NCBI GenBank assembly: GCA_016873805.1
Contig: VGVZ01000002.1
Span: 1-64,000 of the forward strand
Origin: Ignavibacteria bacterium
GTDB taxonomy: Bacteria > Bacteroidota > Ignavibacteria > UBA10030
Direction: 5' to 3'
DNA: 64,000 nt
This document shows, piece by piece, positions 8,505-21,085 of this stretch. Each line of letters starts with the position of its first letter. Within the stretch, counting starts at the first letter, position 1. Under the pieces are notes generated by a model. It made no database searches, was not told the DNA's origin, and saw only the letters and a list, made by a program, of their open reading frames with translations. The position numbers were made by a program, and so were the translations under genes.

Positions 8505-9575
8505 TCAGATGGTCCCGAAGCGTAGATTGAACCGACTGAAGAGGCGGGGCTTTCCTCCGAGCCATTCGACTCCGGCTCCTGCATCCACCCAGATTCCTCC
8601 TGTCAGATGTGTCTCACCTCCTGCTTCCAAGAGGTATCGATCGGACGCCGACCTCAACCACTCTGCTTCGGCGTGCGTGAAGATCTTGTACACGTTCTCG
8701 CCGAGATACACACGCACACCGACCGGTCCTTCGAACTGTCGCAACCGTCCACGCCCATCTCTTGCGAGGCGGAGCTGCGCTCCGGCAACCCACTGGGCAG
8801 TCGGTCCAAGACCACCGGCAGCAACGAACCACGCCCCAAGATCCGACGCAACGATTCCCCGAACACCGACGGAATCGCCCGAAGATCCTCCCCACGCAAT
8901 GCCAACCTCAACAATCGGTTTTCTCCAGTTCTCGTCCTTTGCGCGGTTGCGTGTCGCTACAATACTCGAATCGAGATTTCGGATCTCGGCCTGGATTCGC
9001 GCCTCCGCGCCCAGAGAATCCTCGGCCGACCGGAAGAATGGCCGTGGACCTCTGATCTCATCCCGAATGTGCATTGCAAGGCTCGCCACGGAGTCGGCAT
9101 ACCCAAACAGTGACGAGAGATACCTCTGATCAAGGCGCAAATCGGCTTGATCCATCAGCGTCCATCGCATTCCGACCGCAACGCGGGTCTGACCGGAGGT
9201 GAGTTCATTGCGTTGAGAGGCAACCGAAACACGTATCCGATAAAGGGCACGACTCAGAGCCGATTGCCGGAACTCACTCAAGGTGAGTCGGGAGCCACGA
9301 GCAACGAGATACGGCGAAAACTCGGCCGCAAAAGCCGAGGGGAGGATCCCGCCGGAACGGAGAACATCGGCGATGGTGATCGCAAATTCCCGCGTGCTCG
9401 AAGGTCTCATGATTGCCCCCGGCTCGCCCTTGATGAGTTCGAAAGCAGGAGCATCAGGCACGGCAAATCGCATCCTGTGCGCGATCATCGTGCTCTCCGG
9501 TTGCGCCGAGAGATCCACCTGACCGACACAGCTTGCAAGAATAAGAACAATCCCCAATCGCACCCGTGATTTCAT
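8505..9575 (-). CDS. Secreted protein with probable C-terminal beta-barrel
   Basis: A 356-residue protein with an N-terminal signal peptide (hydrophobic LGIVLILASCVGQ, likely cleaved near LSA-Q). The middle is mostly helical. The last ~130 residues alternate hydrophobic and polar residues (GAWFVAAGGL, GVRVYLGENVYKIF, LFSRFNLRFGTI), as expected for outer-membrane strands. I do not recognise the family. It is the last gene of the cassette running from the patatin gene at 12847, 15 bases behind the small beta protein. It may be the envelope partner of the cassette or merely a passenger. The stop is TGA at 8507-8505. Confidence 0.6.
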   Translation of the reverse strand: MKSRVRLGIVLILASCVGQVDLSAQPESTMIAHRMRFAVPDAPAFELIKGEPGAIMRPSSTREFAITIADVLRSGGILPSAFAAEFSPYLVARGSRLTLSEFRQSALSRALYRIRVSVASQRNELTSGQTRVAVGMRWTLMDQADLRLDQRYLSSLFGYADSVASLAMHIRDEIRGPRPFFRSAEDSLGAEARIQAEIRNLDSSIVATRNRAKDENWRKPIVEVGIAWGGSSGDSVGVRGIVASDLGAWFVAAGGLGPTAQWVAGAQLRLARDGRGRLRQFEGPVGVRVYLGENVYKIFTHAEAEWLRSASDRYLLEAGGETHLTGGIWVDAGAGVEWLGGKPRLFSRFNLRFGTI

Positions 9576-9590
9576 TACGCCTCCAGAGCG

Positions 9591-9968
9591 TCAGGAGCTC
9601 GCGCGCAGCAGCGCGAAGAGCTCAGGATGTGCCTGTGCCTCGCTAATTGGTCCGCTGATTTCGTAGTCCTGTGGAGCTGCATTCCCCTGTCGAAAGATCA
9701 ATCGCACGGAATACCTCTCTCCCGGCTTCCAGTCGGGTGCGACAATCGCCGTCTGACATTGAATCAACCGGCCGTCGTTATGTTTCGTCGGGAGAGGAAG
9801 CAGATAGGTATCGTCGTCCGGATTCTGATTGTTCCCTCTTCTCTGGAGTACCACCGTATTGCTTCCCGCTTCCCACAAGCGGAGGATGTACGACCCGATG
9901 TGGACGTACCCGAACTCGACACCAATCGAGATTCTATCGCCTGCCGGATTGAACGTAAATTCTTTCAT
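9591..9968 (-). CDS. Small beta-rich hypothetical protein
   Basis: 125 residues from the ATG at 9968 (MKEFTFNPAGDRIS), which has a good AGAGGGG ribosome site; a longer upstream reading has no such site. No signal peptide or membrane segment. The sequence is predicted all-beta (YVHIGSYILRLWEAG, RYSVRLIFRQG), compact and unrelated to any family I know. It sits between the pYEATS-like gene (127-base gap) and the secreted protein (15-base gap) on the same strand. A single-domain sensor or adaptor in the cassette is possible, but nothing in the sequence proves it. Confidence 0.65.
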   Translation of the reverse strand: MKEFTFNPAGDRISIGVEFGYVHIGSYILRLWEAGSNTVVLQRRGNNQNPDDDTYLLPLPTKHNDGRLIQCQTAIVAPDWKPGERYSVRLIFRQGNAAPQDYEISGPISEAQAHPELFALLRASS

Positions 9969-10095
9969 TGAATCCCCTCTGAATAGTGATGTCAACAGAG
10001 AATTCCCTCGTCGTACATGATCGAGACTTTGAGGATTGCATGCGACAACGCGCACGGGTGTATCTCGCAGCGTCAAGGTCGCGATCGAACAGTCG

Positions 10096-10743
10096 CTATT
10101 TCCCTGATTCCCACTCTAACTCCGCGCACATATCAAAGTCGATGCTCGACGATGATCCGTTCCGGAGATGCACCGTGACAATGACACTGCTCAGGCATCC
10201 CCACCCCGTGTATTCGACGCGGTACCCGTCTTCCGCATTACTCGAACGTTGCGTCTTCTGACGAAACGTCGGATGATTGAACTCATAGACCACCTCAACA
10301 ACTTCCATCTTTCGCTCGCGAGGTACATCGACCCACAAGCTGAAGTCGTAGTATGTCTCTTTCTCTCCTTTGATCGCTCTATTCTCCACCGCGCGGGCAC
10401 GGGGACGTACCGTCGCGACCAGGGGAAGGGCTTGTGTGAACTCGCGGCGAAGTTGCCGGTTCTGGGTTGCCACGACCGCTTTTTCGATCTGCACATACGA
10501 TTGTTCGAGCTCGCGGGTATTGGAACGGAGCACATCAATTTGCTTCTGCATTGACTCCGACTGCGATGTCAATGAATCCAGAAGCTGACGCTTCTCGCCG
10601 ATCTGCTCATTCACGGAATTCAGTTTGTAGAGACTGAAGAGGAATGCTCCGCCCACGATGATCACTCCCACCAGTGTAATGAGCGCCGACTGTCGGGAAG
10701 ATTTTCGGATCTGGTGTTCGTCGAAGACCGTCTGCGGGTTCAT
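10096..10743 (-). CDS. Membrane-anchored coiled-coil protein with pYEATS-like domain
   Basis: 215 residues: a short basic N terminus, one membrane helix (about 19-41), a coiled coil (about 42-98), then a C-terminal beta domain (about 130-212). That domain carries the hallmarks of prokaryotic YEATS (pYEATS) domains: VVYEFNHPTF at 151-160, a central GWG at 180-182, and a final strand after VHLRNG. pYEATS domains have been proposed as sensor or adaptor modules in bacterial conflict and stress systems. The start codon overlaps the end of the 10740-11018 gene by four bases, so translation is coupled. The domain call rests on motif memory and needs a profile search. Membrane sidedness is unclear. 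Confidence 0.7.
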   Translation of the reverse strand: MNPQTVFDEHQIRKSSRQSALITLVGVIIVGGAFLFSLYKLNSVNEQIGEKRQLLDSLTSQSESMQKQIDVLRSNTRELEQSYVQIEKAVVATQNRQLRREFTQALPLVATVRPRARAVENRAIKGEKETYYDFSLWVDVPRERKMEVVEVVYEFNHPTFRQKTQRSSNAEDGYRVEYTGWGCLSSVIVTVHLRNGSSSSIDFDMCAELEWESGK

Positions 10744-11018
10744 TGGTCACCTCCTTCGAGAACCGGAAGGAGCAGTTTGATGGCATCGCTCCACATTTTG
10801 ATGACCCTTCCCGTTGCGATCGTGATCCCGCCCGACGATCCAAAGAGACCCAAAACGGCAACAGTATCGGCCCCCTTGAAGAGGAGATAGATTGCGCAAG
10901 CCAGGAGGACCACCAGAGAGAGAATGTTGACGATGAGGTATACCATGCGCTCGGCCCGAAAGAGCCTGAGCATTGTACCGATCGCCTGGAGTCGATCATT
11001 GAGTTCATTTGGCGGCAT
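10740..11018 (-). CDS. Small two-helix membrane protein (TRADD-N-associated type?)
   Basis: 92 residues with two hydrophobic segments (about 25-47 and 50-68) separated by a short loop, then an amphipathic GRVIKMWSDAIKLLLP helix. The pattern (helical N terminus, two membrane helices with a Gly-rich GLFGSSGG turn, then TGRxxxMW) resembles small membrane proteins reported beside TRADD-N or pYEATS modules. I give that as a resemblance, not a proven family. It is translationally coupled to the pYEATS-like gene and 56 bases downstream of the patatin gene. It may help form a membrane complex with them. Confidence 0.62.
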   Translation of the reverse strand: MPPNELNDRLQAIGTMLRLFRAERMVYLIVNILSLVVLLACAIYLLFKGADTVAVLGLFGSSGGITIATGRVIKMWSDAIKLLLPVLEGGDQ

Positions 11019-11074
11019 ATGCCCTCACGCAGTTGTTCATGGAAGATGAATTTCGATCATTTTGGCGCAAAAAG

Positions 11075-12847
11075 TCACTTTTTGTCGAGTCTCCCCTTTC
11101 GCAGGAAAACAGGATCTACAAGGAGGAGATGGAGTTTCGCAATAAGAAAACCGGATAGCGCTACGACCGAGGAAACGACATATCGAAGGAAGAAATCTTC
11201 GCCGATGTTCCTGACATAAGAACTCCCGATGTAAGGTGCCACAATGAGCGCGAGCAAAGAAGTCGCGGCCAGCAGGCCCAGCACAATTGACCCTCCCGGC
11301 ACGAGAAACCAGAGGGCCGCGACGAGCGCAAGAGGAATGGCGAGCCCTAAAGCGGCAATGAAGACTCCGACTGGGATCATCCATGGTGCCATCCGGTATG
11401 TCTTCAAGAGCCGCATAGCACCAATCCGAAGAAGCTTGCGATAGGCCGAATCCAGAGTTTCTGCGGAAGCGCTGTCGCGAACCGCTTCAAACATCCATTT
11501 CGTGTTCGAATCGTGTTTTGCTCCGCGAATGCCGGTCGAGTCTCTCTCAACACGCGAAGACCAGCTTGCGGGAATTGCCGTTTCAGCCATCGCGTACCCG
11601 CTGTAGATCAATGAATAGGCCTCCGTGTCGGAGAAACAATCGAGATCGGTTCTGAGATTGGAGAGATAGATTTGAGCTTCTCCGTTCATTCCGTACGAGG
11701 TTTGTGCTGGCATCCTCTTGCTCGGTTCCGTCATCACCCCGTGCGGAGAGAGTCTTTCAACACCAAGTTCATGTTGAAGATGAAGCACCGCATACCGTGT
11801 GATCGAACCGTTTTGCTGCATTGATTCGAGCAGCGTGAACCCCGCATCACGATTCCGATCCATCAGCACTCCGTTCGAGCGTCCGAGCACCCCAACCAAG
11901 CCGGAGCTTGATACTCGCTCATCCGGAAGAAGTCCGCTCGCATCGCTTGCAATGATCATGGTGCATTCTTCCGAGATGAGTCCGGAAATGCCCTGGTTAT
12001 CGTAGAGACCGCCGTCGACAAGTTTCGGAGTGACGTTGGTGTACAGACCCGTGAGCGGAAGCGGCGCAAAGATCCCCGGCACACAGGCAGAGGCGGCCAC
12101 AGCAATGCTGAGTGGAATGGACCGATACTTCGAAGGTATTCCATCGTCGTCATATCGGAAAACCGAGAGAATGGCATTCTTGTCGACCCTATCCGATCGT
12201 GACCGATCACGCATGAGATCGCTCTCGCGTTCTCCGGCATCCACGGCGGTGAATTGCCAGTTGCGTCCGGTATTGAGTGTGGTTGCATTGATCAGCAGAA
12301 TTGGGACTTTGTGCCGACGGGTTCGGTTGTGTCGATGAGGATGAAAATTGTCCGGCGCGCCGGGGGGCTGGATTCTCAGCCGATTTAGCGGAATGCGCTG
12401 CTGCAACGCCGCCGCATCGTAGAAGAACTCGTCATAGAGTTCGGCCATGCGATCGCTTCTCGAGTAGCTTCTGTCATAGATCATTCGCCAGTTCTTTCGG
12501 AAACTGGAATACGCACGGACGCGGAGGTTGCGTTGGATGGCCGGGACAAATGATCGTTCAATCTCCCGAACAAGCCCGACGTACGCATTTGAGGAGATCT
12601 TTTTGTCCGAAATCGACTCGAGGAGTTTCTTAAGGTGCAAATAGTAAAGGGCTCCGATGATGGATCCCCCGGAGACAGTGGAGATCACTTCAACGGAAGA
12701 GAGGAGGTCTCGCTCCGCCAACCTGGCGAGGACGCCAAGATGGAAGAGGGACGCGCGGAAACCTCCTCCGGACAACGCAAGACCGAGCTTGAATTTGGTT
12801 CGGTGTATGATTTTTTGATGACGCCGGCTCTTCATCCTGGTCTCCAC
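11075..12847 (-). CDS. Patatin-like phospholipase with C-terminal membrane helices
   Basis: A 590-residue patatin. The oxyanion-hole glycines are in LSGGGFRAS (25-33), the nucleophile is in TVSGGS (S59) with the VSGG variant of GxSxG, and the catalytic Asp is in VDGG (D278). ASACVPGIFAP (252-262) is a typical block. About 500-590 holds three or four membrane helices, so the enzyme is tethered to the membrane. Patatins hydrolyse acyl esters of phospholipids, and several anti-phage systems use them as membrane-damaging effectors. It is first in a five-gene unit behind a strong-looking promoter at 12961-12989. The start could be M1 or M5. Confidence 0.88.
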   Translation of the reverse strand: METRMKSRRHQKIIHRTKFKLGLALSGGGFRASLFHLGVLARLAERDLLSSVEVISTVSGGSIIGALYYLHLKKLLESISDKKISSNAYVGLVREIERSFVPAIQRNLRVRAYSSFRKNWRMIYDRSYSRSDRMAELYDEFFYDAAALQQRIPLNRLRIQPPGAPDNFHPHRHNRTRRHKVPILLINATTLNTGRNWQFTAVDAGERESDLMRDRSRSDRVDKNAILSVFRYDDDGIPSKYRSIPLSIAVAASACVPGIFAPLPLTGLYTNVTPKLVDGGLYDNQGISGLISEECTMIIASDASGLLPDERVSSSGLVGVLGRSNGVLMDRNRDAGFTLLESMQQNGSITRYAVLHLQHELGVERLSPHGVMTEPSKRMPAQTSYGMNGEAQIYLSNLRTDLDCFSDTEAYSLIYSGYAMAETAIPASWSSRVERDSTGIRGAKHDSNTKWMFEAVRDSASAETLDSAYRKLLRIGAMRLLKTYRMAPWMIPVGVFIAALGLAIPLALVAALWFLVPGGSIVLGLLAATSLLALIVAPYIGSSYVRNIGEDFFLRYVVSSVVALSGFLIAKLHLLLVDPVFLRKGRLDKK

Positions 12848-13043: not shown

Positions 13044-13904
13044 CTAGAACGCCAGCCGGCCGCCGATTGAATAGTACGTTGCGCTGTACGTCCCGCCAGC
13101 AACGGGAGAGAACCGATCGTAGGAAATGTCTGCAAAGAGTGAGCCCCACGGCCAGGGCGCGACAAAGACGGTAAATCCTCCCCCAGCCTGATGAGCATCG
13201 AATGTGTTGTACAGAAGAAAGATATCAGGTTCGTAATAGAGACTTCTTCGCCCGTACTTTCCGGTAAGGAGCATGCCTGCAGAGTGGGAGAGTGAATGGT
13301 AGTAGCTGACGTTCGTCGAGAGGAGCGTCTGTCCATGACCGATGTCATCCGCGAAACGATCGACATTCACGCGACCCGTGAGCCATCCTCCCGTCCCGAT
13401 CCCGCCGGAAACAGACCCAGAGACTCCCATCGTGCGCACATCCTTGAACAGGTTCCCCTGCGCCTGCACACCAAGAATCAGATTTGAAGCAACGAGATGA
13501 TACCACAGCCCGCCATAGAACGTAACACTCTTGTCTGTCAACGCGCTGTTGGATGAAGTGTACACGAGATCGCTGCGCAGAGAAAGAAGATTTGATCCGA
13601 CGACGAAAGAGTGACCTTTCGACAGCAAGAATTGATTCTGCAGATATTCAAACCCGCCGGTGTACGCGATTCCAGTCCGCCGATATCCACCTGTCCACGC
13701 ACTGTTCCAGTGATCGATGAATGAGATCCTGACGCCATAATGACTGATCTTTTCCTGGCTCGCGTCCCGGTACGTCCCGGAGGTAAAAACCTGGTCGACA
13801 GCAACGACCGGATAGACAACGACTTGCGCCTGCAATGGCGGTGAAACAGCCCAACAAAGGATGACAACCACCAGAGATCTCGAAAACGTGCTCATATTCT
13901 TCAT
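13044..13904 (-). CDS. Outer-membrane beta-barrel protein
   Basis: 286 residues with a signal peptide (LVVVILCWAVSPPLQAQ, cleavage after AQA-like site) and repeated amphipathic strands rich in Tyr, Trp and Gly, ending in the C-terminal Phe typical of outer-membrane barrels. Length suggests about 12 strands. The gene starts inside the stop of the transporter-peptidase fusion (TGATG overlap), so it is translationally coupled as the last gene of the six-gene operon. A role as outer-membrane exit or entry port for the operon's product is inference. Family not recognised. Confidence 0.7.
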   Translation of the reverse strand: MKNMSTFSRSLVVVILCWAVSPPLQAQVVVYPVVAVDQVFTSGTYRDASQEKISHYGVRISFIDHWNSAWTGGYRRTGIAYTGGFEYLQNQFLLSKGHSFVVGSNLLSLRSDLVYTSSNSALTDKSVTFYGGLWYHLVASNLILGVQAQGNLFKDVRTMGVSGSVSGGIGTGGWLTGRVNVDRFADDIGHGQTLLSTNVSYYHSLSHSAGMLLTGKYGRRSLYYEPDIFLLYNTFDAHQAGGGFTVFVAPWPWGSLFADISYDRFSPVAGGTYSATYYSIGGRLAF

Positions 13905-16078
13905 CAGCTTGATCTTCCTCCACGTTCCACAGTTTCCTTCAGCTCAAGCTCCATCTCTTCTCCTTTGAAGTGCGTGAGTCCTGAAGGACGCGCAAAGGTG
14001 TACATCACCGTCCGAACCTTCTTCGATGGAGCCCATGAGCCAAACGGTGTTTGGAGAATCAAGGAGGCCTCGGAAGTGAGCTTAATCGATTGCTGCGTTG
14101 CGTGCAAGAGATTCGACAACTTAAACCGGCAGGAGACCCCGACAACCGACAGGAGGTCGAATATCATCACGAGACCGCGCGATAGCGGATCACCCGCCTC
14201 TTCAACACTGGTCCACGACAATGTTTCTCCTGTCACGAGCGGAACATCTGTCAGCAGTTCTCCGACGTGATAGAGTCCTGTGTCCCTTGACCCCTCAAGT
14301 TTCCTCACACTCAATACCCCGTGATCCATCGTGAAGGTCATCCTCGTTTCTATGGGCGCGCTCACGATGCTGAGATTTCCGTGAAAATCGATTTCGGTCC
14401 GCCACCTCTCGGTGGTCACAGAATCTCGACGCGTCATCGCGTAGATGAGGTCATGCGCAAAGGAATAGGGGAAGAACTGCTGTGCGTGCGGATTCACCGG
14501 GAGGTGCTGTATCAACTCCCCTTCCTTCGGTGTCCCCCTCAGGACAAATTCCTTGCTCTCTGACTTTTCCTTCAGGTAATGCGCAAACTCGAAACAGAGC
14601 GTTGGAGCTCCGATCGTGGGAACACTCTGGACCTGAAAATGGAGATGCGGATAGGGAGAGCGTCCTGAATTGCCGCATCGACCGATCGCCTGTCCGGCAC
14701 GCACGCGATCCCCGATCTTCACTTGAGCGCTTCCTTTGCGGAGGTGTGCGACGCACGAGTAGTAGTTGGGGGCATGTTCGATGATCACCGCATTACCCCA
14801 GTGGTCTCGCTCGTTGACGGTTCCAATCGGATTGTCGTGCACATCCGACGTGACGTGGACGATCGTGCCGTCTGCAGGGGCGAGCACCGGTACGCCAAAA
14901 CAAGGATAGTCTACGAGATCAGAGCCTGAGCCTTTGTGAAGCTTTCCCTTCGATCCCGGAATGACGAAGTCGATCGCAAAACGCCAGTCTTCTTTGTGTG
15001 TCATTGGTCCGTCAAATCCCTGCGTCACGATCCACGTGCCATTGAATGGAAGAATCATTTCGACCCCCCAGCGGCGGAATTGGCGGAGATTTGCCCGATG
15101 AGTACTCAGGTTTTCTTCGGGGGTCGAGGCTTCAGCGAGCGATAACTGGAGTCCAGGCGATGGCGAGAGCCGCTGCTGCAAGACATAGAGAATCAGGAGT
15201 GTAATGATGTTGAACGGGAGTGCTGTCGGCGGGAGGTACGCGGGGAGAAGCACCTTTGCACTGAGCATGATCAGCGCCGAGGCTGCGGCTCCAAGGACAG
15301 CCAGAACGAGAGCACCGGCTCGCGGGATCAAGAATATTCCCCCGAGCGCGATGCCCGTAAGGACATAGTTGAATCCAAGGTATTGCTCGGTCAGAACCTG
15401 AGGATACGCGCCAAGCCACGCGTGCGTGACATACCCGGCCGCAAATCCTGCAACTCCGAGAAGCACTCCGATTCGGGAGTGAACAAGGAACGCGATGAGG
15501 ATGATCGCCCCCGAAAGGACATCGACTTGAAACAGGACGGCGCCGAGCGATCGGAGAAAGAGATCCGCAACGGAAGAGCCGGTGGTAAGCCCTGCCGCAC
15601 TCAACGGCCATTCAGCAAGCTCGAGCTTTCCGAAGCCGAGCGAGGCCGACACGACGATCGAGAACCCGATCACGAAGGGGAGGCTCAAGGCCGGGAGCCG
15701 CAGATAGTACCATAGTGTTCGCTGAAGTGCTTCTGCGAGGAATGTCGTAAGGATACCTCCCAGGAGCACAAGGATGACGAGATTGAATGATGGAGCATAG
15801 AAGAACGTGAGTGCGAGGGCGACGAGCAACGGATTGAACCCATAGTACCCCTTGCGGATCTTCTGCCGTTCGAGCCCCAGTATGAACGCCGTGCCGTTGG
15901 AAGTCAGAATCGCAAACAGCCCGATTAGTCCGGTAAGAGGATTGAGAAACGTCGTCAGGGCAACGAGGATGCCGAAGGAACGACGCTGGGAGAAAAAGAC
16001 AACACCGTAGCTTCTCACGGTGGAGTCAATGAGAAAGGAGATATTTTCGCGCAGGTGGGCGGAGAATGGTCCCATCAC
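13904..16078 (-). CDS. Urea-transporter-like / M23 metallopeptidase fusion
   Basis: 724 residues. Residues 1-310 form a urea-transporter (UT/SLC14-like) domain: YGFNPLLVALAL at 79-90 and its internal-repeat counterpart GFNYVLTGIALGG at 235-247, plus LPALSLPF at 128-135. Residues about 340-490 form an M23 (LytM) peptidase: zinc ligands look like H361 and D370 in HKEDWRFAID, then H445 in AHLRKGS and H480 in PHLH. A C-terminal ~200-residue beta-rich region follows. Joining a small-amide channel to a peptidoglycan-type endopeptidase in one chain is unusual. The gene is 7 bases after the PLP decarboxylase and overlaps the barrel gene, so it belongs to the same pathway. Substrates are unknown. Confidence 0.83.
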   Translation of the reverse strand: MMGPFSAHLRENISFLIDSTVRSYGVVFFSQRRSFGILVALTTFLNPLTGLIGLFAILTSNGTAFILGLERQKIRKGYYGFNPLLVALALTFFYAPSFNLVILVLLGGILTTFLAEALQRTLWYYLRLPALSLPFVIGFSIVVSASLGFGKLELAEWPLSAAGLTTGSSVADLFLRSLGAVLFQVDVLSGAIILIAFLVHSRIGVLLGVAGFAAGYVTHAWLGAYPQVLTEQYLGFNYVLTGIALGGIFLIPRAGALVLAVLGAAASALIMLSAKVLLPAYLPPTALPFNIITLLILYVLQQRLSPSPGLQLSLAEASTPEENLSTHRANLRQFRRWGVEMILPFNGTWIVTQGFDGPMTHKEDWRFAIDFVIPGSKGKLHKGSGSDLVDYPCFGVPVLAPADGTIVHVTSDVHDNPIGTVNERDHWGNAVIIEHAPNYYSCVAHLRKGSAQVKIGDRVRAGQAIGRCGNSGRSPYPHLHFQVQSVPTIGAPTLCFEFAHYLKEKSESKEFVLRGTPKEGELIQHLPVNPHAQQFFPYSFAHDLIYAMTRRDSVTTERWRTEIDFHGNLSIVSAPIETRMTFTMDHGVLSVRKLEGSRDTGLYHVGELLTDVPLVTGETLSWTSVEEAGDPLSRGLVMIFDLLSVVGVSCRFKLSNLLHATQQSIKLTSEASLILQTPFGSWAPSKKVRTVMYTFARPSGLTHFKGEEMELELKETVERGGRSS

Positions 16079-16085
16079 CGGTGCA

Positions 16086-17429
16086 TTACCTCAGCCATCT
16101 TGGAATCGAATCGAGTCGGATCACGTCTTCGACACGCTCTGCTTCACGAATAACGTCAATGTTGCCCTTGTTGCTGATCATCACGACGCGCGGGCGCAGC
16201 TCGATGAACTGGAGCCATTGTGTGTTGTTGTACGCACCCACCGGCCTGACGATCACACGCTCTCCTTTTTCGAGAAACGGAACCCGCACCGCTTCGGCGA
16301 TCACATCGATCTGCATACACATCGGGCCATAGATGTTGTGGATTTCGGTGAAGAGCCCTTTGTCGGTGGTGGGAAGGATTTCGAAATCATACCAGAATGC
16401 CGTAAACAATACGTTCACCCCGGCATCGAGAACAAGGGCCCGAGTTCCGGATGGTAATCGCTTGGTCGAGACGACCGTGGCCACAAGATATCCGGCTTCG
16501 TCAATCAATGCCCGTCCCGATTCGATGATCAGGAGTGGGAGCTCGTCATGCGGATAGTGGTCGAGCAGGGGCGAACAAATGGCATCGGCAAACATATCGA
16601 AATCGGGAGCCAGCTGGTCGGTCGGGATGTAGGACCCTTTGAGACGATTCCGCGATGCGAAACCGCCGCCCATGTCGATATATTTGAGCGTGGTTCCGAA
16701 CTCCCGCTTGAGTTGCGCGGCAAGATCGATCATCTTCTTTGCCGCATCGCCATAGAATTTCGGCTCCAACATGAAGGTCCCGATGTGCGTATGGAGACCG
16801 ACAAGATTGAGTCGCTGATGGGCAAGAGCCCGCTTGATGGTGTGGTATGCCTCGCCTGACTCGATATTGAGTCCGAACCGATCCCACATTGCGTAGCCGG
16901 GGATCGTCATGTTCACGCGCACACCGAAGTCAACCTTCGTACCAAGCTCATCGGCGATTTTCTCCAGCTCCGGCAATTCATCGAAGCTGTCGATGTTGAT
17001 CATCGCCCCATCGACCGCGGCCTGCCGAAGCGATTCCGGACTCTTATGAGGACCATTGTAGACGATTTCGTTTCCGGGAACACCCAGGCTCTTTGCCATC
17101 GCGTACTCCATTCCGGAAACGACCTCCGCCCATGCGCCCAGGCGATGAAACGCTCGACAGATGGCCTTCAGGTAGTTCGTTTTATAGCTCCAGGCAAACT
17201 GTACTTTTGGATACCGCGTGGCAAACGCCTGGTACGCCGAGGCATATTGCTCCTTGAGCGTCTCGTGAGAGTAGACAAACAGAGGTGAGCCGTGTTCTTT
17301 AACCAGTGCGTCAATGCTGACGCCGTCGATGGTGTCTTTGTGCCGCGACACAACAAAGGGGGCAAATTTGTTTGTGATACCCGCGTGCTGACGCGTCAGT
17401 ACAGGTTTGGTGTACGGTTTCTTCTCCAT
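16086..17429 (-). CDS. PLP-dependent decarboxylase, diaminopimelate decarboxylase family
   Basis: 447 residues of the group IV (alanine-racemase-fold) decarboxylases, which include LysA. Visible are the PLP lysine in SYKTNY (K83), the phosphate-binding GLHTHIG and MGGGFASR segments, and the catalytic GPMCMQID cysteine motif from the partner subunit. Such enzymes act on D-stereocentres of diaminopimelate or on ornithine, lysine or related acids. The position inside an operon with ATP-grasp and PqqD-like genes, away from lysine genes, argues for a specialised amino-acid decarboxylase supplying an amine. The 30-residue N-terminal extension is not typical of LysA. Confidence 0.85.
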   Translation of the reverse strand: MEKKPYTKPVLTRQHAGITNKFAPFVVSRHKDTIDGVSIDALVKEHGSPLFVYSHETLKEQYASAYQAFATRYPKVQFAWSYKTNYLKAICRAFHRLGAWAEVVSGMEYAMAKSLGVPGNEIVYNGPHKSPESLRQAAVDGAMINIDSFDELPELEKIADELGTKVDFGVRVNMTIPGYAMWDRFGLNIESGEAYHTIKRALAHQRLNLVGLHTHIGTFMLEPKFYGDAAKKMIDLAAQLKREFGTTLKYIDMGGGFASRNRLKGSYIPTDQLAPDFDMFADAICSPLLDHYPHDELPLLIIESGRALIDEAGYLVATVVSTKRLPSGTRALVLDAGVNVLFTAFWYDFEILPTTDKGLFTEIHNIYGPMCMQIDVIAEAVRVPFLEKGERVIVRPVGAYNNTQWLQFIELRPRVVMISNKGNIDVIREAERVEDVIRLDSIPRWLR

Positions 17430-17474
17430 CAGATGCGCCGATCCTGTGTCATGAGATGCTGTGTCGATCCTTCG

Positions 17475-18524
17475 TTATCGGTATCGCAGCTCCTTTTTCG
17501 TCAGGAGCATGTCAAGTTGGTGTACGTGAGCAACAAGGTCGGTGGTGTAATGCACAAACATCGTTCCCGCCACGTTGTTGCGGGCGATTGCCGGGGAGGT
17601 TCCCAGGGCGAGCTGGCAGTATGCGTACGGCAGATTGATACCGCATGCCTTCCCGAGATAGATCCAGGCCGGAAATCGAGGATTGATCTCGATCAGGTAG
17701 AGTGTGCCGTCGTCCCCCATCAGCATCTCCAGTTCAAATCCCCCTTTCCACTCAAGAAGCGAGACAAATCGTTCCGCCGCGTTCGTCAATTCCTCGTTCA
17801 CGATACTCACGCCGGCCCATCCTTTTCCCTTGTCCGTCGTGAACACCTTTTTCATGCATACGGCTGAGACGAGTCCGCCGCGCCCATCCCCTAATCCCGC
17901 GAGATTGTACTCCTCTCCGGGAACATATTTCTGGAGAATCAGGGGGAATCCCCATCGGCTCGAGATTGAATGCATGGCGGAACGCATGTGCGATTGATTG
18001 GCAGCGAGGTAGGCCTCATAGAAGAGCCCCTTGACCATCAGAGGAAACTCGAGTTGCCCTGCTGCGCGTTCTGCTTCGCCGACACTTGCCACCGTCCGGC
18101 TTTCCGGCACACCGAGAGCCATTCCAGTGGCGAGGTCTGCGAGATTCGTCTTCGTCCGTCTCTTTAGCTGCGCAGCGCTCGGCAGGAAGGTCCGGATACC
18201 GATCTCGCGGAGCTTCGTTTCAAGATCAATCACGTTTGCGAGCTCGGAATCGAGGTTCGGGATCAATACATCTATTGATTCCTTTGCCTGGATTTCCATC
18301 ATCCTTTCGAACCATACCTGCCGCCCGGCTTTTGGGTAGGGGAGCAGGTACACCGCGTCGACAAGCTCACTGTCGAAGATTCCCGGATCGTAGGCGTCGT
18401 AGGCAAGTCCGACGATCCGTCCGGACCACTCCGGCTCTTCCCGCAGACTCCGGATGACGGCAACACCGGGAGCCGGATTGTCGGTCGCGTTCAGGCCCGT
18501 GACTGCAACGTTACACTTCATCAA
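17475..18524 (-). CDS. ATP-grasp ligase
   Basis: 349 residues with the ATP-grasp fold of the carbamoyl-phosphate-synthase-like type. There is an N-terminal Rossmann-like preATP domain with AVTGLNATDNPAPG, lysines at RRTKTN and PLMVKGLFY for ATP binding, QKYVPGEEYNL, and the metal-binding LIEINPRFP near residue 284. Enzymes of this fold join a carboxylate to an amine or thiol through an acyl-phosphate. It overlaps the PqqD-like gene by 14 bases and lies 45 bases before the decarboxylase gene. Together these suggest ligation of a decarboxylated amino acid to a carrier or peptide. Substrates are unknown. Confidence 0.86.
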   Translation of the reverse strand: MMKCNVAVTGLNATDNPAPGVAVIRSLREEPEWSGRIVGLAYDAYDPGIFDSELVDAVYLLPYPKAGRQVWFERMMEIQAKESIDVLIPNLDSELANVIDLETKLREIGIRTFLPSAAQLKRRTKTNLADLATGMALGVPESRTVASVGEAERAAGQLEFPLMVKGLFYEAYLAANQSHMRSAMHSISSRWGFPLILQKYVPGEEYNLAGLGDGRGGLVSAVCMKKVFTTDKGKGWAGVSIVNEELTNAAERFVSLLEWKGGFELEMLMGDDGTLYLIEINPRFPAWIYLGKACGINLPYAYCQLALGTSPAIARNNVAGTMFVHYTTDLVAHVHQLDMLLTKKELRYR

Positions 18525-18768
18525 TCAGCCGATAGGTTTTCATTTGCGCAAGGAACTGCGTGGTATCTCTGAAGATGACATCAGATTTGCCATCATAGTG
18601 TTGCTCGATGTATGCGAGAATATCCTCCACACTTTTTTCTTCTTTCAGAAGCCGGATGATGTCCAAACCGGTTTCATTGGTCGTGAATGTCTGACCAGTG
18701 CTCGGATCGAAGATGAATCCCGAATCGCTCAACGCGAGCGATTTCAGACGACGGTTGAGCTCTTTCAT
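18511..18768 (-). CDS. PqqD-like small protein
   Basis: 85 residues that fit the PqqD winged-helix (RiPP recognition element) pattern: SGFIFDPSTGQTFTTNETG, then DIIRLLKEEKSVEDILAYI and a final FLAQMKTYRLI helix. PqqD proteins bind leader peptides for modifying enzymes, and PqqD-like proteins also occur in HPr-rel-A and ATP-grasp clusters. The overlap with the ATP-grasp gene (14 bases) indicates coupled synthesis. It may present a peptide or carrier substrate to the ligase; no obvious precursor peptide gene is adjacent. Confidence 0.78.
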   Translation of the reverse strand: MKELNRRLKSLALSDSGFIFDPSTGQTFTTNETGLDIIRLLKEEKSVEDILAYIEQHYDGKSDVIFRDTTQFLAQMKTYRLIDEV

Positions 18769-18770
18769 GA

Positions 18771-19181
18771 TTACCTCGTTTGGAGATATCCCCAGAGATA
18801 GCTTGCCATCCCCGTGTGCTTGAAGCCAAGCTTCTGGCAGACGGGGTCATCCGGCGCACATTGCTCTTTCGTCAGCTTTCCGCTCCAGACTGCCGCTTCG
18901 AATGTCCCCTTCTCGAATTTGGAGTTGATTTCAAGCTCCTTGACGAAGATTCCCGGCTTGATCGGGAAAGAGTAGTGTACGCCTTCGTTCAGCAAATTGG
19001 ATGCGTTGGGCGGATAGAGAGAGATGCCCAGATGAAGTCCGGCATCGGGGACTTCGACGCTGATTTTCAGAATGAGCTTGCCGAGAGGATTTTTGACGAT
19101 TTCGTACCCCACGGCATGACCTTTGGATTGTCCGAACGACAGCGTCGCGCAGATGAGAAGAAGTGTGAATACTCTGAGCAT
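18771..19181 (-). CDS. Secreted hypothetical protein, first gene of the six-gene operon
   Basis: 136 residues from the ATG at 19181 (MLRVFTLLLICATLSFGQ), which gives a clean signal peptide; an earlier start at 19265 would hide it. The mature part is beta-rich and contains two cysteines (EQCAPDDPVCQ) that could form a disulfide. Family not recognised. Only two bases separate it from the PqqD-like gene. It could be a periplasmic binding partner or the modified substrate of the pathway; both are speculation. Confidence 0.65.
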   Translation of the reverse strand: MLRVFTLLLICATLSFGQSKGHAVGYEIVKNPLGKLILKISVEVPDAGLHLGISLYPPNASNLLNEGVHYSFPIKPGIFVKELEINSKFEKGTFEAAVWSGKLTKEQCAPDDPVCQKLGFKHTGMASYLWGYLQTR

Positions 19182-19774: not shown

Positions 19775-21085
19775 TTATTCGTTTTCGGCTTCCGGGATTC
19801 GCCGCACCCGGATCATTTCCACGGCCCGTTCGTCAACCTCTTCAATCGTAAATTCGACTCCGTTGACCTGAAGAGATTCCCCTTTCGTCGGGATGTGGCC
19901 AAGCTGTTCCATCACAAACCCGCCGATGGAAAGAACGTCTTTTGGAGATAGCTCCCGGTTCATCAATCGTTCAATCTCATTCGTCGTCATCATTGCGTCG
20001 ACGAGATACTCGTCATCCGTGATCTTGGTCATCTCCGGAACTTCGCGATCAAACTCATCCTGGATGGTTCCGACCAACTCTTCCAGCACATCCTCGAGCG
20101 TCAGAAGCCCCGCTGTTCCTCCGTATTCATCGACGAGGATGACAACATGCGTTTTCTTATGAAGCATGACATCGAGGGCCTTTTCGAGATAGACCGTTTC
20201 CGGCAGGAACGAAACATCCCGCAACACCGATTCAAGCGAGAAGTTCTCACGGTGGTTCAGTTCATGCTTGAAGATATCCTTGGTATGAACAACACCGATG
20301 ATGTTGTCGATCGAGTCGCTGAAGACCGGATAGCGGGAGTACTTGTTCCGACGCATGGTGTCAATACTTTGCTGGATCGGATCTTCCACTTTCAGGGCAA
20401 CCATTTCCCGGCGCGGAACCAAGAAATGGCGCGCTTGCTTGCGCCGGAAATCCATTGCATTGAGGACGATTGTTTTGCTCGTGAGGGAAACATTCTTTTC
20501 CTGAGCCAGCAGCAAGCGGATTTCCTCAGACGAGTGCATCAGCTCTTCCTCGCTCACGTGGCGAATGCCGATGATGCGCAGGATCAGATTTGATACGAAA
20601 TCCAGGATCTTGATGAATGGGCTGAAGACGAAAAAGAAGGCCCTCAGGGGATACGCGATCCACAGCGTCAGGTTCTGAGCTTTCTGGATGGCAATCGACT
20701 TCGGGACAAGTTCGCCGAAGATGATATTCAGGAACGTCACCAGACCGAAGGCGATGCTGAAGGAAATCGCCTGCACAACCTGCGGATTCTCAATGCCAAG
20801 TCCGGTAAACACACCAACCAGCATTCGGGCGACAAACGGTTCTCCCAGCCATCCCAGAGCCACGCTGGTCATCACATTGCCGAACTGCGTTGCGGATAGA
20901 TAAACATCGAGGTGCCCGAGAATGCTCTTGGCGATCTTTGCCCGACGATGTCCTTTGACGACAAGCGCTTCGATTTGGGTTGAACGAACCCGAACGAGGG
21001 CAAATCCCGAAGCGGTGAAGAAACCGTTGAGGAGAGCGATCAGAACAAGAAGGGTGATATTGGAGAATCCCTGCCAGGCGTCCAT
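19775..21085 (-). CDS. CNNM/CorC (HlyC-type) membrane protein
   Basis: 436 residues: N-terminal CNNM/DUF21 transmembrane domain (about 1-190, four helices), two CBS domains (about 205-330, with FLVPRREMVAL and VVHTKDIFKHE) and a C-terminal CorC_HlyC domain (about 345-430). The family is linked to Mg2+ and Co2+ efflux or resistance. Annotations as hemolysin are historical. Start ATG is behind a TTGAAG-N17-TATATT promoter. Confidence 0.9.
   Translation of the reverse strand: MDAWQGFSNITLLVLIALLNGFFTASGFALVRVRSTQIEALVVKGHRRAKIAKSILGHLDVYLSATQFGNVMTSVALGWLGEPFVARMLVGVFTGLGIENPQVVQAISFSIAFGLVTFLNIIFGELVPKSIAIQKAQNLTLWIAYPLRAFFFVFSPFIKILDFVSNLILRIIGIRHVSEEELMHSSEEIRLLLAQEKNVSLTSKTIVLNAMDFRRKQARHFLVPRREMVALKVEDPIQQSIDTMRRNKYSRYPVFSDSIDNIIGVVHTKDIFKHELNHRENFSLESVLRDVSFLPETVYLEKALDVMLHKKTHVVILVDEYGGTAGLLTLEDVLEELVGTIQDEFDREVPEMTKITDDEYLVDAMMTTNEIERLMNRELSPKDVLSIGGFVMEQLGHIPTKGESLQVNGVEFTIEEVDERAVEMIRVRRIPEAENE

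Follow-up and report, generated by a model that had tools for sequence, protein, structure and literature searches.

A conserved Ignavibacteria operon with a lasso-type RiPP recognition element, a tailed decarboxylase and a channel-peptidase fusion: a possible system for assembly and export of a decarboxylated amino-acid conjugate

The window analyzed here is a stretch of 64,000 nucleotides (positions 1 to 64,000, forward strand) from contig VGVZ01000002.1 of an Ignavibacteria bacterium (GenBank assembly GCA_016873805.1; 3.2 Mb, 99% complete). It carries a six-gene operon on the minus strand at 19181-13044. The original prediction, made from the DNA alone, treated these genes as one transcription unit, either for making and exporting a product derived from a peptide or an amine or for remodelling the cell wall. 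The same six open reading frames were recovered at the same coordinates and on the same strand, with gaps of 2, -14, 45, 7 and -1 bases, which supports a single transcription unit. The -14 gap depends on a TTG start for the ATP-grasp gene; an ATG one codon later gives -11. Pfam confirmed the four predicted identities of PqqD-like protein, ATP-grasp ligase, pyridoxal phosphate (PLP) decarboxylase and channel-M23 fusion. In order of transcription the features are as follows.

18771..19181, minus strand: secreted protein of 136 amino acids with an N-terminal signal sequence, a lineage-specific upstream gene; no Pfam or NCBIfam match, homologue only in genome G251.
18511..18768, minus strand: PqqD-like recognition element (RRE) of the kind found with ribosomally synthesized and post-translationally modified peptides (RiPPs), 85 amino acids, lasso-B1 type; PF05402, 9.6e-14, and profile matches to TbiB1 and TfuB1.
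17475..18524, minus strand: ATP-grasp ligase of 349 amino acids, like carbamoyl phosphate synthetase (CPS) and PylC; PF15632, 1.5e-11, and PF02655, 5.5e-6.
16086..17429, minus strand: PLP decarboxylase of alanine-racemase fold, 447 amino acids, N-citrylornithine-decarboxylase-like by Pfam, loop motif and FslC clade.
17355..17429, minus strand: leader-like N-terminal tail of the decarboxylase (MEKKPYTKPVLTRQHAGITNKFAPF), recognized by its conservation, low model confidence and lasso RRE motif (PMC13381572).
13904..16078, minus strand: protein of 724 amino acids with a urea-transporter (UT)-like channel (1-330), an M23 peptidase (~337-500) and a β-rich C-terminal region (498-722), assigned by Pfam, fold matches and invariant residues.
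13044..13904, minus strand: outer-membrane barrel of 286 amino acids with a signal peptide; matched by a hidden Markov model (HMM) of a conserved downstream barrel family, E 2.8e-14.

The PqqD-like, ATP-grasp, decarboxylase and UT-M23 genes form the core of the operon. In a survey of 296 genomes of the phylum, the ATP-grasp was found in 26 (E below 1e-20), and the UT-M23 protein was present in all 26. The core had identical order and strand in 25/25 other cluster genomes of the phylum; in G005 the fusion is divided into two adjacent open reading frames. Co-occurrence and synteny are far beyond chance, and the scattered homologues that would have spoken against the original prediction were not what the phylum contained. 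One scan of named genomes returned at least 563 ATP-grasp relatives. Most of the best 80 of these belong to Bacteroidota (among them Hymenobacter, Mucilaginibacter and Bacteroidales); the rest include Ignavibacteria, Chlorobiota, Myxococcales and a metagenome-assembled genome (MAG) of Melainabacteria, although MAG labels may err. The core was present in these loci wherever the contig reaches; the contig of L124 ends 1.1 kb past the decarboxylase and has no fusion gene up to that point. Sampling the phylum to which a Myxococcales genome belongs gave 22 strong ATP-grasp matches in 237 genomes, and sampling that of the Melainabacteria MAG gave 3 in 146. When 16 loci on the Myxococcota/Melainabacteria side were inspected, the decarboxylase with its tail and loop motif was kept in 14/14 that were sufficiently long. 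Two weak Myxococcota matches (L239, L240) lacked the cluster and were set aside as paralogues. Within families the cluster occurs patchily, as would be expected if its function is accessory.

The PqqD family profile found its best matches in the lasso RREs TbiB1 (4.5e-12) and TfuB1 (1.2e-8), while the PqqD of pyrroloquinoline quinone (PQQ) biosynthesis gave only 0.012. The lasso PqqD model NF033530 was matched by 27/27 members tested, and the window protein falls below the cut-off of that model. Against the PQQ PqqD model the window protein scored 18.9 bits (cut-off 46), and a Pfam scan found no other pqq gene in the operon. PQQ biosynthesis was rejected on these two grounds. By its sequence, the PqqD-like protein is a lasso-type RRE. 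The matches to TbiB1 and TfuB1 supply the discrete B1-type RRE of a lasso cluster; a lasso B2 protease and an asparagine-synthetase-like cyclase were found neither among the Pfam-scanned window genes nor among the identified recurring neighbour clusters. Small-ORF (open reading frame) scans of more than 100 loci found no conserved small precursor gene near the core, and a separate precursor peptide was discarded as a candidate. Lasso RREs recognize a [Y/W]xxPx[L/V/I/F/A] motif in the leader (PMC13381572; also PMC12710340). The genome of the window has a second, unrelated PqqD-domain gene (L246, G000:C1:42785-42949), whose neighbours include a peptidase gene and a gene resembling oligopeptide transporters.

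A motif of this kind is found on the decarboxylase. About 33 residues precede its folded domain and are absent from the LysA proteins of the same genomes. The consensus of this tail is K..[YF]E[RK]Px[IL]...G..NK[FY]G, and it fits the lasso RRE motif of PMC13381572. Among 101 aligned members, Y/F6 was conserved in 101, E7 in 99, R/K8 in 100, P9 in 101, I/L/V11 in 101, G17 in 81, K21 in 101 and G23 in 98, so that [YF]xxPx[ILV] occurs in 101/101 by alignment. This alignment gives the unbiased count, since a pattern count of 115/115 had already required the P and the K. The sole member missed by the pattern search carries the motif with one additional residue. By comparison, [YFW]xxPx[LVIFA] occurs within the first 30 residues of 3.8% (40/1049) of unrelated proteins in these loci. 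The AlphaFold2 model of the decarboxylase has a mean predicted local distance difference test (pLDDT) score of 86.9, with tail residues 7-25 below 50. The tail is among the most conserved stretches of the protein though it is disordered in the model, and a segment predicted to be disordered yet nearly invariant is typical of a docking peptide. The class of the RRE (lasso type) and the motif of the tail (YxxP type) agree independently. The ligand of the RRE is probably this tail, not a separate precursor. The binding module of the original prediction therefore stands as an RRE; the separate precursor that a RODEO-type search was meant to find gives way to a motif on the decarboxylase. A second invariant block of the tail, G17..NK21FG23 (window 17361-17381, minus strand), needs an explanation other than RRE binding, such as contact with the ligase or the carrying of cargo.

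The decarboxylase matched Orn_Arg_deC_N (5.2e-32) and the corresponding C-terminal domain (3.1e-11), and the residues of an alanine-racemase-fold decarboxylase are conserved (the PLP lysine K83, H215, the glycine loop G254-256, R306 and the catalytic cysteine C371). It scored 218.2 against the LysA model TIGR01048 (cut-off 297.9) and 211.6 against the N-citrylornithine decarboxylase model NF041039 (cut-off 500). The nearest solved relative by sequence was N-citrylornithine decarboxylase (E 9.9e-53; 28-30% identity to FslC/FigC), and by structure the same enzyme (7kh2) was nearest, by a small margin (Z 47.0 versus 45.6 for LysA). The C-loop touches the substrate at its far end. Its sequence is C-M-N-I-D in 97/101 members and C371-M372-Q373-I374-D375 in the window protein; LysA has C-E-(S/T)-G-D and FslC has C-M-Q-H-D. 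In a tree the family joined FslC (support 0.964), and the LysA proteins of these genomes fell elsewhere. The genome of the window has its own LysA on contig C7, with CETGD, and an ornithine-decarboxylase-like gene on C45. Housekeeping LysA was ruled out by the TIGR01048 score, the loop motif, the tree and the separate LysA, and the chance that the operon holds the sole LysA of the genome, a concern of the original prediction, no longer applies. FigC and FslC have been grouped with SbnH, AcsE, MccE and BtrK, enzymes without a role in polyamines, whose amino-acid substrates are citrylated, linked to a nucleotide or bound to a carrier (PMC7857480). Since the family joins the FslC clade and has the C-M-x-x-D loop, a conjugated amino-acid substrate appears more likely than a free diamino acid. 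The free-amine supply first proposed for this enzyme is unlikely, given its grouping with conjugate decarboxylases and the lack of an acidic residue after the C-loop Cys. The sequences suggest a new group of conjugate-type decarboxylases.

The ATP-grasp ligase scored 44.6 against ATPgrasp_Ter (cut-off 29.1). Its ATP/metal-binding residues E264, E266, E279, N281 and K165 were invariant in 24 members. The nearest solved structure was 2pn1, and the relatives are CPS-like and PylC-like proteins, mostly of unknown substrate. The PF15632 domain is that of the Ter-operon ATP-grasp pathway, but Ter and nucleoside-pathway genes were absent from the scanned neighbours, and this pathway was rejected.

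In the fusion, UT (PF03253) was matched at 4.4e-54 (184 bits, cut-off 25) and Peptidase_M23 at 4.5e-18. Residues 2-329 matched the fold of the urea transporter dvUT (3k3g) with Z 39.1, and the inner-membrane channel originally predicted can now be refined to a UT domain of the SLC14 type. The M23 domain matched the DipM LytM fold (Z 14.6), and its zinc and catalytic residues H361, D370, H445, H478 and H480 were invariant in 89/89 members. The β-rich region 498-722 had no fold match among the matches listed, in a fold search that scarcely covered this region. The UT domain has the fold and the PF03253 match of urea transporters but falls below TIGR03441 (111.6 vs 274.6), and its pore is in part altered. 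At the dvUT positions Q24, E187, T130 and T294, which bind urea in dvUT, E187 is Ala in 59/89 members and T130 is Ser in 83/89; most members have Ser or Val for T294, and the window protein has Val for Q24. In UT-B both ends are cytoplasmic. Positive-inside analysis likewise placed both ends of this UT domain on the cytoplasmic side. The strongest K/R cluster immediately follows the last helix, and no membrane segment lies between that helix and the M23 domain. A cytoplasmic location is therefore predicted for the M23 domain, an unusual place for this peptidase family.

Neither the secreted protein nor the barrel matched a Pfam family. The secreted gene was found in only 2/197 genomes of the class, both cluster-bearing; its homologue in G251 lies upstream of the same cluster. 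In most loci a TPR (tetratricopeptide repeat)-barrel protein (~440 amino acids) and a TPR protein (~207 amino acids) lie directly downstream of the core, and the family was found in 82 loci. The barrel of the window matched an HMM built from the downstream barrels of Ignavibacteria, which are related to the TPR-barrel proteins (hhalign 97.6%). The small TPR gene of most relatives is absent from the window; the barrel is present. Of the barrel and the secreted gene, both in the original set, the barrel belongs to the conserved set and the secreted gene is lineage-specific.

Several relatives have additional genes. In five loci the decarboxylase and UT-M23 genes are separated by a gene for an IF-2B-like protein (Pfam 2.8e-28) (e.g. 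L094 12420-13337, L105 12455-13363). In 22 loci an AraC-type regulator whose N-terminal region looks like a metal-binding domain lies just upstream of the PqqD gene (examples are L100 8986-9582, L106 8977-9591, L160 5681-6271 and L165 9040-9624). A sigma-70-like factor is within or near the operon in eight loci. A 10.7 Mb deltaproteobacterial MAG (G299, the genome of L089) has two ATP-grasp copies.

We propose that the operon encodes an RRE-organized system for assembly and export of a conjugated, decarboxylated amino-acid product, with a probability of roughly 0.45. The proposal draws on the gene content and order, the intact catalytic residues, the conservation of the tail, the clade and motif of the decarboxylase and the class of the RRE. 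In the docking step, which we infer from strong sequence evidence, the RRE would bind the YxxP-type tail and hold the decarboxylase, and probably the ATP-grasp, in one cytoplasmic complex. The ATP-grasp would use ATP to form an amide bond between an amino acid and an acceptor. The decarboxylase would then take the α-carboxyl off the conjugated amino acid, as FslC/FigC, BtrK and MccE do, and not off a free diamino acid. The channel protein may cut or trim the product with its M23 domain, on the cytoplasmic side, and the product would exit through the UT-like pore and be carried onward by the TPR protein and the outer-membrane barrel. With its conserved core, production and export of a peptide- or amine-derived product, as originally suggested, remains the best general reading.

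Several points weigh against this proposal. The interaction, the substrate, the direction of transport and the product are what we infer from the genes, and nothing in them points to a particular amino acid, acceptor or product. The UT pore could serve import instead of export, and the order of the ligase and decarboxylase steps is assumed. Structure prediction covered single chains, with no complex. Most M23 peptidases act outside the cytoplasm, and the topology given here is predicted from charge bias and homology. Finally, the tail profile gave nothing above cut-off against lasso leaders and leader families (the best match was PF19397, DUF5972, at 0.0051, below cut-off) and no relevant PDB match, so its likeness to a leader is one of motif and RRE class, not measured homology.

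Envelope remodelling is the alternative with the most in its favour, although we consider it unlikely. Here a periplasmic M23 domain would cut peptidoglycan, the decarboxylase would make a diamine or alter an amino acid of the diaminopimelate (DAP) type, the ligase would attach it, and the barrel and TPR proteins would be parts of the envelope. The M23 domain does resemble the cell-wall enzymes DipM, ShyA and LytM, the barrel and TPR proteins have signal sequences, and the decarboxylase is related to DAP decarboxylase. However, the UT loops fit a cytoplasmic C-terminus (K/R after the last helix, no further transmembrane segment before M23), the RRE and the leader-like tail would have no role, and the C-loop is without the LysA Glu. 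The cell-wall role first suggested is weakened by the cytoplasmic location that loop charge predicts for the M23 domain.

Fused precursor-enzyme proteins are known from borosins, and the operon could be a RiPP pathway in which the tail is both leader and core, modified and then cut off the decarboxylase. We felt that this was rather improbable. The leader-like motif is followed by the second invariant block G..NKFG, an RRE, a ligase and a peptidase are all present, and no other precursor lies nearby. On the other hand, RiPP cores usually vary, whereas the tail block hardly changes; a single tail on each enzyme molecule would mean a stoichiometric product; and the length and sequence of the tail are constrained up to the folded domain. 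More doubtful again, the tail might be a carrier: the RRE would present it to the ATP-grasp, an amino acid would be loaded on Lys21 and decarboxylated while tethered, and M23 would cut the cargo off at the channel mouth for export. If true, a ribosomal peptide would here load itself and act as the carrier, a part that until now only carrier proteins have played.

A rhizoferrin/staphyloferrin type of assembly, yielding a siderophore or metallophore, has little to recommend it. It agrees with FslC as the nearest decarboxylase, with the same fold in SbnH and with the AraC-type regulators upstream in 22 loci, but an NRPS-independent siderophore (NIS) synthetase (PF04183, IucA/IucC) was found in 0/22 cluster genomes, and no TonB receptor or siderophore gene is among the conserved neighbours. 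An FslC-type N-citrylornithine decarboxylase proper was rejected on the NF041039 score and the missing PF04183 partner. Urea uptake for nitrogen assimilation, with the other genes accessory, is very improbable: the UT domain and its dvUT fold match are clear, but urease is absent from the genome of the window and strong in only 1/22 cluster genomes, and the pore positions differ from dvUT. Anti-phage defence was dropped after 8 proteins gave no PADLOC match.

The proposed RRE-organized system shares parts with several known ones. The PqqD-like protein is nearest to TbiB1 and TfuB1 of lasso biosynthesis and the tail fits the YxxP-type motif (PMC13381572), but the motif is on an enzyme and not a precursor, and a ligase and decarboxylase stand where no cyclase or B2 protease occurs in or beside the operon. 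FslC/FigC of rhizoferrin biosynthesis is the nearest solved relative by sequence and structure, with the same clade and C-M-x-x-D loop; here identity is low, the NF041039 cut-off is missed, the NIS synthetase is lacking and a leader-like tail is added. Peptidase-containing ATP-binding cassette (ABC) transporters (PCATs) are ABC transporters fused to a C39 peptidase. They resemble the fusion in layout only, as a transporter joined to a peptidase predicted on the cytoplasmic side, since a urea channel and M23 take the place of the ABC transporter and C39. The N-terminal domain has the fold of the urea transporters dvUT and UT-B, but differs in its fused M23, altered pore residues, TIGR03441 score and lack of urease in most hosts. 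In butirosin biosynthesis, the ATP-grasp BtrJ loads Glu on a carrier protein. BtrJ/BtrK likewise pair an ATP-grasp with a decarboxylase of alanine-racemase fold whose substrate is a tethered amino acid (BtrK: PMC7857480); with no acyl carrier protein here, the RRE and peptide tail would take the tethering role.

The literature searched, which left many subscription papers outside it, contained no description of a PqqD, ATP-grasp, decarboxylase and urea transporter set, of a urea transporter with M23, or of an RRE with an ATP-grasp and a DAP decarboxylase. This agrees with the earlier view that the operon is not a described system. The individual domains are all known ones, but that literature does not describe their combination, the presence of the tag on an enzyme, or the UT-M23 fusion. 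For each of the nearest named systems (lasso, PQQ, LysA, NIS siderophore and Ter), the operon lacks at least one defining feature.

The known role of RREs is to bind the leaders of precursors. Here, across hundreds of genomes of several phyla, a biosynthetic enzyme carries the only conserved YxxP-type tag near the lasso-type RRE. If the binding is true, RREs would also organize assemblies of enzymes, and pathways of this sort would escape genome mining aimed at small precursors. Another unusual element is the candidate exporter, a urea channel with an M23 domain that is predicted to be cytoplasmic.

Two neighbouring regions of the window were also noted. A same-strand unit at 8505-12847 (minus strand) encodes a patatin-like phospholipase (590 amino acids, Pfam 1.8e-20), a small membrane protein and a coiled-coil protein carrying a prokaryotic YEATS domain (Pfam 1.1e-12). 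It has two further, unknown genes and looks like a separate conflict or signalling cassette. Upstream of the operon, 19775-21085 (minus strand) encodes a CNNM/CorC-type CBS transporter, for which the nearest NCBIfam models, below their cut-offs, were GldE and PaeA (polyamine export).

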